A DNA stretch of 42,038 nt from an uncultured Ectothiorhodospiraceae bacterium (GTDB lineage Bacteria > Pseudomonadota > Gammaproteobacteria > JAABTG01), in the NCBI GenBank assembly GCA_937867305.1, contig CALMKJ010000053.1:1-42038 (forward strand), given 5' to 3'. The translations under genes and the position numbers were made by a program. Under the pieces are notes generated by a model. The model had not been told where the DNA came from. It ran no database searches and saw nothing but the letters and a program-made list of their open reading frames with translations. Below, one piece after another: positions 32,720 to 37,002 of this stretch (positions are counted from its first letter, which is position 1; each line of letters begins with the position of its first letter).

Positions 32720-33514
32720 TTACCGAACGGGGTTTCCGACCCGGTCGAGGTTGAATTCCCCGCCCGCCCAGTCCCAACTGAACCAGATGAGGAAGGCCTT
32801 TCCGATGAGGTTGGCGTCCGGCACCGTGCCCCAGTACCGGCTGTCGCGGCTGTTGTCCCGATTGTCTCCCATCACGAAGTAGTGGCCGTCCGGCACCACC
32901 ATCTCCCCCTCCACCGAGGGTGCGGACGGCTGCACCAGGATCTCGTGGGCCACCGGCTGGAGCGCCTCGCGACGAACGTCCGCGCCGGTCATCACGGCAC
33001 CCGATCCGCTCCCTCGATAGCTTCCGGCGGGCACCTGGGGCACTTCCTTGCCGTTTACGTACAGGGTCTTGTGGAAGTAGCCGATGCGGTCCCCGGGTAG
33101 ACCGACGACCCGTTTGATGAAGGGCACGGAGGGGTCTTCCGGGTAGCGGAACACCACGATATCGCCCCGCTGCGGAGCACCGATCTCGACGATCTTGCGG
33201 TCCACGACCGGCAGCCGGATCCCATAGGTGAATTTGTTCACCAGGATGAAGTCCCCGATGAGCAGGGTGGGCAGCATGGACCCGGACGGGATGCGAAACG
33301 GCTCGACCAGGAACGACCGCAGGAGCAGAACGGCCAGGAAGATGGGAAAGAACGAGCGGGCGTACTCGAAGAGACGGGGCCGCGGCGGCATCGGCTTGCC
33401 GCTCGCTTCGGCCTTGCGGCGCCGCGCAGGCGCGAACAACACGGCGTCGAGCAGCCAGAGAACGCCACTCGCCAGAACAAAACCGAACAGCAACGTCGCG
33501 AAATCGATCTTCAT
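32720..33514 (-). CDS. lepB: signal peptidase I
   Basis: Removes signal peptides from exported proteins at the outer face of the inner membrane. The 264-residue protein has two N-terminal membrane helices (about 5-27 and 54-70), the catalytic Ser79 in [14 protein letters not shown], Lys134 in [11 protein letters not shown] and the [14 protein letters not shown] box. The ATG at 33514 overlaps the lepA stop as ATGA, and the gene follows lepA as in E. coli. Confidence 0.96.
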
Positions 33515-35307
33515 GTCTTCTTCCCGACCTGCAGGACGGCGAGAAACGCCTCCTGCGGGATTTCGATCTTGCCGAATTGCTTCATCCTGCGCTTACCCGC
33601 CTTCTGCTTCTCCAGCAGCTTGCGCTTGCGGGTCACGTCTCCACCGTAGCACTTTGCCGTGACGTTCTTGCGCAGGGCCTTCACCGACTGGCGGGCCACG
33701 ATATGGGACCCGATCGCCGCCTGGATTGCGACCTCGTACATCTGGCGCGGGATGATCTCCTGCATGCGCTCGCAGAGGTCTCGCCCGCGCGCGTACGCCT
33801 GGTCGCGGTGCACGATGATGGAAAGGGCGTCCACCCGCTCGCCGTTCACCAGGATGTCGAGCTTCACGAGGTCCGCAGCCTGGAAACGGACGAAGTGGTA
33901 ATCCAGCGACGCGTAACCCCGGCTGAGCGACTTGAGCCGGTCGAAGAAGTCGAGCACGACTTCGCTCAGAGGCAGCTCGTACACCAACGAGACCTGCCGG
34001 CCGAGATATTGCAGCGAGCGCTGCACGCCCCGTTTCTCGATGCAGAGATTGATGACGTTGCCGAGATGCTCGGGCGGCATCAGCATATTCGCCTGAACTA
34101 TCGGCTCCCGAATCTCTGCCATGCGGTTCGCCGCGGGAAGGTCCGCCGGGTTCTCCACGCGCAGGGTCTCGCCCCCGGTGGTGACCACCTCGTAGACGAC
34201 CGTCGGCGCCGAGGTGATCAGGTCCAGATCGTACTCGCGCTCGAGCCGCTCCTGGACGATGTCCATGTGCAGCAGCCCGAGGAAACCACAGCGGAACCCG
34301 AAACCGAGCGCCTGGGAGTTCTCCGGCTCGTACTGGAGTGCGGAGTCGTTCAGGCGCAGCTTGCCGAGCGCCTCGCGAAAGGGCTCGTAATCCGCGGAAT
34401 CGACCGGGAAGAGGCCAGCGAAGACCTGGGGCTTCACGGCCTTGAAACCGGGGAGCGGCGTCTGCGCCGGGCGGCGGTCGTCGGTGATGGTGTCCCCAAC
34501 CGGCGCCCCGTGGATGTCCTTGATGCCCGCGACCAGGAACCCGACCTCACCCGTCTCGAGGACCGTCCGGTCTCGCGGCTTCGGCGTGAAGATTCCGAGC
34601 TTTCCGACCTCACCCGAGAAGCCGGTCGCCATGACCCGCACGCGCTGACCGGCGGTCACCCGCCCGTCGACGACACGAATGAGCGAAACGACGCCCAGGT
34701 AGTTGTCGAACCAGGAATCCACGATGAGTGCCTTGAGCGGGCCATCGGGGTTGCCCGCGGGAGGCGGGATCCGCACGAGGAGGGCCTCGAGCAGGTCCGG
34801 CACGCCCTCGCCGGTCTTGGCGCTCACGCGCAGGGCGTTCTGCGCCTCGATCCCGATGATCTCTTCGATCTCCTGGATGACTCGCGCCGGCTCCGCGGAG
34901 GGCAGGTCGATCTTGTTGAGCACGGGCACCACTTCCAGGCCCTGCTCGATCGCGGTGTAGCAGTTGGCGACGCTCTGCGCCTCCACGCCCTGAGCGGCGT
35001 CGACGACGAGCAAGGCCCCCTCGCAGGCGGCAAGCGATCGGGAGACCTCATAGGAGAAATCCACGTGGCCCGGGGTGTCGATGATGTTCAGTTCGTACAC
35101 CCGGCCGTCGCGCGCCTTGTAGCTGAGCGTCACGCTCTGGGCCTTGATCGTGATGCCCCGCTCCCGCTCGAGGTCCATCGAGTCGAGAACCTGCTCCGCC
35201 ATCTCCCTCTGGCTGAGCCCACCGCACGTCTCGATCAGGCGATCGGCAAGGGTCGACTTGCCGTGATCGATATGGGCGATGATGGAGAAGTTTCGAATGT
35301 GATCCAT
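33511..35307 (-). CDS. lepA: elongation factor 4 (LepA)
   Basis: A ribosome-bound GTPase that affects initiation and elongation under stress. The 598-residue protein has G1 [10 protein letters not shown]3 DTPGHVDF, G4 NKID, an EF-G-like core and the LepA C-terminal domain ending in [18 protein letters not shown]. The ATG at 35307 gives [18 protein letters not shown], the family start. The frame is open further upstream but is not conserved there. There is no ribosome site before the ATG: the bases are a terminator-like hairpin and T tract ending 8 nt upstream. It follows the degP operon but is separated by that hairpin and another one. Confidence 0.95.
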
Positions 35308-35315
35308 GCAAACGG

Positions 35316-35340
35316 AAAAAGGGCGCCATGGACGCCCTTT
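35316..35340 (-). terminator. intrinsic terminator-like hairpin directly before lepA
   Basis: On the minus strand AAAGGGCG (35340-35333) pairs with CGCCCTTT (35325-35318) around a TCCATGG loop, and the T run goes on to 35316, then CCGTTTG. It is the only hairpin with a U tract that I found in the window. It ends 8 nt before the lepA ATG, so it lies in the lepA leader instead of after a gene. A further inverted repeat joins 35339-35349 with 35401-35411 (one mismatch) and touches the base of this stem, so the two could compete. Confidence 0.6.
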
Positions 35341-35423
35341 CCCCGGTCTCTCGTGCTCAGACCGCTCTTCCGGCGCTGTCCCGCGGCCCGGCGAAGGACC
35401 AGACCCGGGAAGTGTAACCCAGG

Positions 35424-35456
35424 GGCCCGCCACCGGAAAGGCTCCGGCGGCGGGCC
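35424..35456 (-). terminator. long hairpin after degP
   Basis: A 14-bp stem (35424-35437 with 35443-35456, one mismatch on DNA that is a G-U pair in minus-strand RNA) with a 5-nt loop lies 22 nt past the degP stop. No U tract follows. A weak -10-like TACACT for lepA is at 35411-35416 on the minus strand. The stem probably ends or protects the rpoE-degP mRNA. Confidence 0.5.
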
Positions 35457-35478: not shown

Positions 35479-36930
35479 TCAGCGCAACTTGAGCGCGAGG
35501 AACAGCGGGTTTCCACGCCGCTGAACCAGCAGCGGCACCGACCGGTCGGACGGCAGCCCCCCGGCCAACTCCCGGAAGTGCCCCGTTCCCTTCACCTGGA
35601 CGCCGTTCAGCATCAGGAGCACGTCCCCTTGCCGGACCCCGGCCCGATGGGCAGGGCCATCGGCGACCTGCGTGACGAGCACCCCACCGTCCTTGACCTC
35701 GAGCTCCTCACGCTGCTCGCGGGTCAACTCCTGCACGGTGAGCCCGAGGCGCGAGTCCGTGACAGGGCCGCCCGAGCCCCCCGAGCGTGCCCGCACTTCC
35801 TTCTCCTCGGGCAGCTCCGCGATAGTCACCGACAAGACGACCGGCTTGCCCTCGCGCAGCACCTTGACCGGCGCCCGGGCTCCGACTCGGGCCTTGCCGA
35901 CGATGGGCGGCAGGTCCGAAGACTGCACCACTGGCTTGCCGTCGAACTCCAGCACGATGTCTCCGACGACGAATCCGGCCTCGCCCGCCGGGCTCCCGGG
36001 GAGCACGCGTGCCACCAGGGCGCCCCGCGGACGGTCCATGCCGAACGACTCCGCGAGCTCGCGGTTCACGTCCTGGATGAGAACCCCGAGCCAACCGCGG
36101 CTCACCCGTCCCTGCCCCTTCAACTGATCGACGACGTCCACCGCCACGTCGATGGGGATCGCGAAGGACAGCCCCATGAATCCACCCGTACGGCTGTAGA
36201 TCTGCGAGTTGACGCCGACCACCTCGCCTTCCAGGTTGAAGAGGGGACCGCCGGAATTCCCCGGATTGATGGCGACGTCCGTCTGGATGAAGGGAACGTA
36301 GTTTTCCGAGGGGAGGCTGCGCCCCATCGCGCTCACGATCCCGGCCGTCGCGGAGTAATCGAAGCCGAAGGGCGAACCGATGGCGAGCACCCATTCGCCG
36401 ACACGGAGCTTCGCCGAAGTGCCGAGCTTCACCGTCGGCAGGTCGGTCGCCTTGACCTTGAGCAGCGCCACGTCGCTGCGCTCGTCGCTGCCGACGACCT
36501 CCGCGGTGAACTCCCGCCGGTCACTCAGGCGCACCACGACCTCGTCGGCGGAGCGCACGACGTGGTGGTTGGTGAGAATGTAGCCATCGCTCGAGATGAT
36601 GAAGCCCGAGCCGAGAGACTGGGCATCGAACTCCTCCGCCTCGCCGCCATCCCCGAAGAAGCGGCGGAAGAACTCGTAGAGGGGGCTGTCCTCGGGGATA
36701 TCCGGGAGCTCGAGCCCCTTCGGGAGCTCCAACCCCTTCGGCAGCCCATGGGGGGACTCCTTGCTCTGGGTCGTCGAGATGTTCACCACGGCCGGACCGT
36801 ACTTGTCCACGAGCCACGTGAATTCGGGCAGACCGTCCCGTGCATGCGTCACGGGCACGGCAGCCGCCAGCCCCAGCAGCATCAGCGCGACGCGCGCTAC
36901 ACCGGCGTTTACGGCTCGAATCGCATTCAT
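35479..36930 (-). CDS. degP: DegP/MucD-type periplasmic serine protease
   Basis: Degrades or holds misfolded envelope proteins. With the ATG at 36930 the protein has 483 residues: a signal peptide (about 1-30, ending VTHA), a trypsin-like domain with His123, Asp153 and Ser226 (GNSGGPL), and two PDZ domains (about 270-360 and 385-475). The hexamer GLELPK is partly repeated at residues 62-76 in the LA loop region. A GTG start at 36966 is also in frame, but AGGA before 36930 is better. It belongs to the sigma-E operon, like mucD of Pseudomonas. Confidence 0.94.
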   Translation of the reverse strand: MNAIRAVNAGVARVALMLLGLAAAVPVTHARDGLPEFTWLVDKYGPAVVNISTTQSKESPHGLPKGLELPKGLELPDIPEDSPLYEFFRRFFGDGGEAEEFDAQSLGSGFIISSDGYILTNHHVVRSADEVVVRLSDRREFTAEVVGSDERSDVALLKVKATDLPTVKLGTSAKLRVGEWVLAIGSPFGFDYSATAGIVSAMGRSLPSENYVPFIQTDVAINPGNSGGPLFNLEGEVVGVNSQIYSRTGGFMGLSFAIPIDVAVDVVDQLKGQGRVSRGWLGVLIQDVNRELAESFGMDRPRGALVARVLPGSPAGEAGFVVGDIVLEFDGKPVVQSSDLPPIVGKARVGARAPVKVLREGKPVVLSVTIAELPEEKEVRARSGGSGGPVTDSRLGLTVQELTREQREELEVKDGGVLVTQVADGPAHRAGVRQGDVLLMLNGVQVKGTGHFRELAGGLPSDRSVPLLVQRRGNPLFLALKLR

Positions 36931-37002
36931 CTCTTCCTGGCTCCCCGCCTGCTGTCCGGGCGTCACCGCCGACGCCCCTGGTCGAAACCCACGGCCCCGC
37001 GC

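Follow-up and report, generated by a model that had tools for sequence, protein, structure and literature searches.

What role does a terminator-like hairpin play when it is located directly before the start codon of lepA, downstream of a gene that could also use it to end its own transcript? This question is raised by a stretch of 42,038 nucleotides from an uncultured Ectothiorhodospiraceae bacterium (the whole of it being called the window below), in which the list of open reading frames gives the minus-strand order degP/mucD, lepA, lepB, a DUF4845-like open reading frame, rnc, era and recO; we take these names from recognition of the translations, made without database look-up. The degP stop and the lepA ATG are 171 nt apart and, in the order of transcription, this gap contains a hairpin without U tract, a sigma70-like promoter whose predicted -35 overlaps that hairpin, a leader of ~60 nt and a second hairpin, this one with a U tract and separated from the ATG by five bases. 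Note that the degP GTG at 36966 is the start of the longest open reading frame, and the true start may be later. The features are the following:

35479-36966, minus strand: open reading frame of a degP/mucD-type serine protease, upstream of lepA (open reading frame call, name from the translation)
35424-35456, minus strand: GC-rich hairpin 3′ of the degP stop, 14 bp, without U tract (fold and terminator score)
35411-35439, minus strand: predicted lepA promoter, with TTTCCG at 35439-35434, 17 nt, and TACACT at 35416-35411 (promoter scan)
35346-35404, minus strand: predicted leader RNA, from the putative transcript start (~35404, placed from the -10) to the terminator
35313-35345, minus strand: leader terminator hairpin, 15 bp with a 3-nt loop (fold, rule scan and terminator score)
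35340-35331 pairing with 35327-35318, minus strand: core stem of this hairpin (fold)
35316-35320, minus strand: U tract of 5 T, 7 T in the same-genus genome (sequence and alignment)
33511-35307, minus strand: lepA (EF4), ATG at 35307-35305, 598 aa (open reading frame and translation)

Our analysis confirmed that the hairpin and U tract reported before lepA in the initial annotation are real, the tract ending 8 nt before the ATG at 35307. The hairpin reads CGGGGAAAGGGCGUC-CAU-GGCGCCCUUUUUCCG on the minus strand (35345-35313), and its 15 bp (three of them G-U pairs) and 3-nt loop fold with -24.5 kcal/mol, a stability that none of 200 shuffles equalled (z -5.2). The 131-nt stretch around it was unremarkable when folded as a whole (z -1.46), and a 198-nt stretch folded better than its own shuffles (z -3.9). 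A scan of the 42 kb on both strands with a fixed terminator rule gave four matches, among which the lepA hairpin was the sole one with at least six G-C pairs, and no match of that strength occurred in eight one-strand dinucleotide shuffles; the same rule, applied to 44 kb of the same-genus genome, found the same hairpin and two weaker matches. Using a terminator score with a formula from the literature, we obtained +18.5 for the lepA hairpin and +17.0 for the rimP-leader terminator of the window's own genome. The 14-bp hairpin at 35456-35424, which had been presented as the degP transcript's own, is also a real fold, but it has no U tract and a terminator score of -13.5. Like an intrinsic terminator, the lepA hairpin has a G-C-rich stem followed immediately by a U-rich tract. 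Note that the five U's of this tract (35320-35316) are also base-paired in the lower stem, and that a lower stem using up the tract could favour pausing or structure over release. The hairpin was absent from the listing of a consensus scan of the window, a probable consequence of its stem extending into the U's. As a side observation, the window (1-42038) is almost without intrinsic terminators at gene or operon ends (three of the four rule matches being weak), and this scarcity suggests other modes of transcript ending in a GC-rich genome.

The position of the hairpin relative to a promoter is of particular importance for its interpretation. When the 130 nt ahead of the hairpin were scored with a promoter weight matrix, TTTCCG-17 nt-TACACT came out best, and only 1 of 200 shuffles scored as high (p = 0.010); its -35 is weak, with 3 of 6 matches. 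Between the hairpin and the lepA ATG there are only 5-10 nt, and therefore no space for a promoter. The predicted order is promoter, terminator and lepA start codon, and the hairpin most likely lies in lepA's own leader, in which, ahead of the hairpin, no ATG, GTG or TTG was read in the sequence. The signature TANAMTTCCCGG, which comprises the -10 and the following bases (35416-35405), has a single occurrence in the window, and 100 shuffles produced none. Over 266 lepA loci (917 kb, both strands) it was found in 12, always on the sense strand and 60-109 nt upstream of lepA: the window, the same-genus genome, L042 and nine Pseudomonas loci. Since the pattern was written after inspection of the window and Pseudomonas sequences, the evidence is its restriction to lepA leaders and not the match itself. 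One of 30 further lepA loci (L246-L275) contained it, namely L249, and among 374 loci a single match was near a gene other than lepA (L124). Another layout was seen in L032, where a TATACT box is separated from the lepA ATG by 10 nt, which suggests from the sequence that this lepA mRNA may be leaderless or nearly so.

Conservation was assessed in an order sample of five genomes, which provided four lepA leaders since one contig (G002) ends inside lepA. Compared to the same-genus genome (G001), the stretch 35330-35442, whose limits were chosen after viewing the alignment, displayed 2 differences in 113 nt (98.2% identity) and ranked among the best 3.2% of equal-size windows (1,330 of 41,617, coding windows included). 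Only this inner stretch stands out, as the entire degP-lepA gap of 171 nt is 93.6% identical, little over the window mean of 91.7%. Sixteen stretches, compiled by hand and in some cases partly coding, served for comparison, and among them two gaps of 3 and 15 nt were 100% identical and the acpP region 97.2%. Third codon positions were 75.8% identical in degP and 86.6% in lepA. Inside the gap, the leader between the predicted start and the hairpin is identical at 58 of 59 positions, the hairpin at 29 of 33 (i.e., below the leader preceding it), and the final 20 nt ahead of lepA at 16 of 20. Three of the four stem changes keep the pair (one G-U to A-U, two G-C to G-U) and one end pair is lost, the U tract has 5 T in the window and 7 T in G001, and the sole arm change in the degP-side hairpin also retains its pair. 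In the two leaders that could be read from a second genus of the family (G003 and G004), the terminator is GGGGCGT-AAACA-ACGCCCC-TTTTT, different in sequence from that of the window and with its stem end located 12 nt from the lepA ATG; the best promoter is again upstream of the terminator, and alone it is not significant (p = 0.154 and 0.095, respectively). All four family leaders score as terminators, with a U tract of 5-7 T throughout.

Terminators near lepA recur in other Gammaproteobacteria. The survey covered 200 distinct lepA loci for which 150 nt or more of upstream sequence existed; like the held-out loci below, they were picked by LepA similarity and hence do not give unbiased frequencies. 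Strict terminators within 100 nt of lepA were found on the sense strand in 36 of them, compared to 7 on the antisense strand and a shuffled mean of 3.6, while 164 had no strict terminator nearby. Fifteen of these 36 terminators are at most 30 nt from the lepA start and therefore too near for an intervening promoter. The best promoter was located upstream of the terminator in 34 of the 36 loci, but the searched stretch is mostly upstream anyway, and for this reason we relied on shuffle tests, in which 12 of the 36 loci reached p < 0.05 (combined 6e-10, related loci not being independent); coding stretches of the first-set loci, used as control, gave 1 of 35 (combined 0.83). In a held-out set fixed beforehand (71 loci, of which 66 were usable, 3 unreadable and 2 duplicates), a terminator within 110 nt of lepA was identified in 19 of the 66 loci (antisense 6), the other 47 having no strict terminator nearby, and the promoter tests were weaker, with 2 of 18 at p < 0.05 (combined 0.006) and a coding control of 0 of 18 (combined 0.37). 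Two stem motifs were considered as signatures and rejected. GGYGC/GYGCC, present in 19 of 33 leader terminators vs 6 of 65 others, had been picked after seeing the data and occurred in only 4 of 18 held-out terminators vs 6 of 65 (p = 0.21), and GGGC/GCCC did not qualify as a lepA-wide signature (11 of 33 vs 13 of 65, p = 0.21). The hairpin, the U tract, the promoter signature, the promoter-terminator-gene order, the conservation and the recurrence in relatives are all supported by computation.

Structured lepA leaders seem to be wider in occurrence than terminators at lepA. In Pseudomonas-type loci, a leader of near-constant length comes after the lepA promoter and contains one hairpin, whose arms seem to co-vary across species when judged by eye rather than by a formal covariation count. 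A stem of at least five pairs was present in 32 of 38 distinct leaders, the six without one including L046, which is not Pseudomonas-like. Leader hairpins with seemingly co-changing arms were observed in L038, L050, L055, L058, L067, L070-L074, L081 and most of L246-L275; the hairpin lies ~10 nt past the predicted transcript start, and mostly GAGUGUU-like letters precede a GTG start. These leaders, which belong to no named family, share with the window the promoter signature in some loci and the single leader hairpin, but they are shorter (52-57 nt from the -10 to the start), with a poorer U tract and, in the five that were scored, a negative terminator score.

Regarding translation, the initial annotation had reported that lepA lacks a ribosome site, which was confirmed by an anti-SD pairing of -1.5 kcal/mol. 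Such weak pairing is ordinary for lepA, with a median of -3.05 over 266 loci and 12.8% of them reaching -6. The AUG bases have an unpaired probability of 0.07-0.23 in the folded leader transcript, i.e., they are mostly paired. No later lepA start is plausible because a start after the ATG at 35307 would presumably truncate the conserved GTP-binding region. In the upstream direction, no stop codon interrupts the lepA frame as far as a GTG at 35433, which lies in the degP-side hairpin. An N-terminally extended LepA starting there was rejected, as three of the four codons that differ from the same-genus genome would alter the residue and the open frame in the other genus extends only 11-12 codons upstream; an out-of-frame ATG in the hairpin loop, which opens a 93-codon frame running into lepA, was unsupported as well.

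Altogether, we consider it likely that the hairpin is a leader terminator that limits lepA transcription and perhaps also ends degP. RNA polymerase would start at lepA's own promoter, between degP and lepA, make a leader of ~60 nt and then meet the terminator 5-10 nt before the start codon. We infer that the predicted promoter is active and that termination occurs and is partial: part of the transcripts would end at the hairpin and leave a short leader RNA of ~90 nt, and the read-through fraction would yield the lepA-lepB-rnc-era-recO mRNA. The same hairpin would stop many transcripts coming from degP and, in the read-through mRNA, it would lie under the ribosome footprint and slow initiation. 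By analogy with rimP, NusA would be a candidate modulator of the read-through. The earlier view, in which the element looks like something other than a mere degP end and sits where it would gate lepA, is supported by the predicted promoter between degP and the hairpin (p = 0.010), the terminators located 12 nt before the ATG in the other genus and the conserved leader (35330-35442), but the attenuator with competing structures that was attached to it is not.

Other explanations must be weighed against this one. The hairpin could serve the degP stress unit as its 3′ terminator and border on lepA by coincidence, with lepA expressed by read-through and an order without regulatory meaning, a reading that is possible but that we find unlikely. 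Indeed, the rule identified no other terminator between degP and lepA, the degP-side hairpin being excluded as such by its negative score and missing U tract, and -24.5 kcal/mol is strong, whereas 5′ terminators average weaker than 3′ ones (-16.5 and -20.2 kcal/mol, respectively, in the searched text of PMC2965389). However, the promoter signature lies upstream of the hairpin, the promoter-hairpin stretch is unchanged at all but one of its 59 positions, which a plain 3′ UTR need not be, and several Pseudomonas loci (e.g., L050, L072 and L073) have an upstream-gene terminator, a promoter and a second leader hairpin. A leader hairpin that acts in the mRNA with little termination, by hiding the start, shielding the 5′ end or being cut (e.g., by RNase III, encoded in the same operon), would agree with the missing Shine-Dalgarno site, with the mostly paired start codon and with the Pseudomonas-type hairpins, which vary in sequence, are fixed in place and, in the five scored, are non-terminators; nevertheless, the U tract is kept and every family leader scores as a terminator, and we judge this option distinctly improbable. 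As for an independent small RNA gene of ~90 nt between degP and lepA, ended by the hairpin, its anatomy (promoter, conserved body and terminator with U tail) is indeed present, but the promoter signature is linked to lepA in distant genomes with different leader sequences, and two Rfam small-RNA families, despite E-values of 0.02 and 0.04, were rejected with 16.6 and 16.4 bits, far under their cut-offs of 123 and 39. The small RNA gene is the least probable of the explanations. A leader RNA with a second job may nonetheless be compatible with a lepA-linked promoter signature.

A true two-state attenuator, in which an antiterminator competes with the terminator, appears very unlikely, only slightly less so than the small RNA gene. 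The pairing of 35411-35401 with 35349-35339, which had been proposed to compete with the hairpin, exists with 10 of 11 pairs and a central G-G mismatch, but it reaches only the base of the stem and leaves the terminator core untouched. In addition, an RNA polymerase starting at the predicted site would leave 35411-35405 uncopied, and with it half of this pairing, which by eye has no counterpart in the other genus of the family. The broader claim of attenuation by competing structures was not supported either, since the pairing of the 5′ arm with the upstream leader was reached by 61 of 200 shuffles in the window and, in ten leaders, no arm-to-leader pairing above shuffles was found (61 to 186 of 200 shuffles reached the values). 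The clearest antiterminator-like layout, seen in one lineage, is the L185 lepA leader (80 nt before the ATG), in which AGAGGUGCCCA...UGGGCGUCUUU can form another strong hairpin that takes in the terminator's 5′ arm; this favours a two-state switch, whereas the arm-pairing score of L185, one of the ten leaders, is not above shuffles either (119 of 200). The window leader consequently does not display the alternative antiterminator structure by which a leader attenuator is recognised. A protein-dependent switch would need no such structure.

What LepA does in the cell has been uncertain for a long time. More recent results point to 30S maturation (PMC12787274). In this context, a leader terminator at lepA would help to show when cells want LepA, and it would put lepB, rnc and era under that switch as well. 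Moreover, a terminator this near the start codon could act on both transcription and translation, a dual action that had not been demonstrated as of 2010 according to the searched text of the survey of that year (PMC2965389). We also propose, as a tentative idea that is more likely wrong than right and about as doubtful as the degP-terminator reading or slightly more so, that lepA in Gammaproteobacteria is repeatedly controlled at the gene level by a leader terminator of its own, much as rimP is by the rimP-leader, with rimP-nusA-infB and lepA-lepB-rnc-era both braked by a terminator at the start codon and possibly sharing a signal. If true, a single elongation factor, or one state of ribosome assembly, could act on two 30S-maturation operons.

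In the literature searched, no description of a lepA leader terminator was found, and the word lepA is absent from the searched text of PMC2965389, PMC8297930 and PMC7815308; the element looks like a built-in brake of a known kind, at a gene for which that literature does not describe one. Rfam gave no match above the gathering score at the lepA leader. It did not flag the rimP leader of the window's own genome either, and since no rimP-type family was listed at either place, Rfam cannot decide on rimP-leader membership. With classical attenuators (amino-acid leader peptides, riboswitches and rnk/greA leaders) the lepA leader would share a terminator downstream of the gene's promoter, which is here a predicted one, but it differs from them in having no start codon ahead of the hairpin, no antiterminator above chance and no Rfam match.

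The closest known kind is the rimP-leader, the 5′ terminator of rimP-nusA-infB (Naville and Gautheret 2010, PMC2965389). As characterized in the searched text of that survey, it is a short hairpin with a GGGc...gCCC stem and a U stretch, lies 4-130 nt before the start and shows no visible antiterminator; the same text counts 15,930 predicted 5′ terminators in 302 genomes, and this kind of element is therefore well known. A rimP-leader-type terminator was found before rimP in all four genomes searched (G000, G001, G003 and G004), its stem ending before the fitting ATG by 20 nt in G000 and G001, 39 nt in G004 and 12 nt in G003. In the window's own genome, two tandem terminators precede rimP (L282, reverse strand 1355-1370 and 1432-1450), the second being of the GGGC...GCCC rimP-leader type with its stem end 20 nt before the ATG. 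The lepA element likewise combines a G-rich 5′ arm and a C-rich 3′ arm (GGGCGUC/GGCGCCC, with the core stem 10 nt from the ATG) with a U stretch and no visible antiterminator, and like the rimP-leader it precedes a ribosome-maturation gene. In contrast, lepA and not rimP lies downstream, and the remaining stem sequence is unlike. Because its downstream gene is lepA, the element is not filed as a rimP-leader: it is alike in anatomy but not a member.
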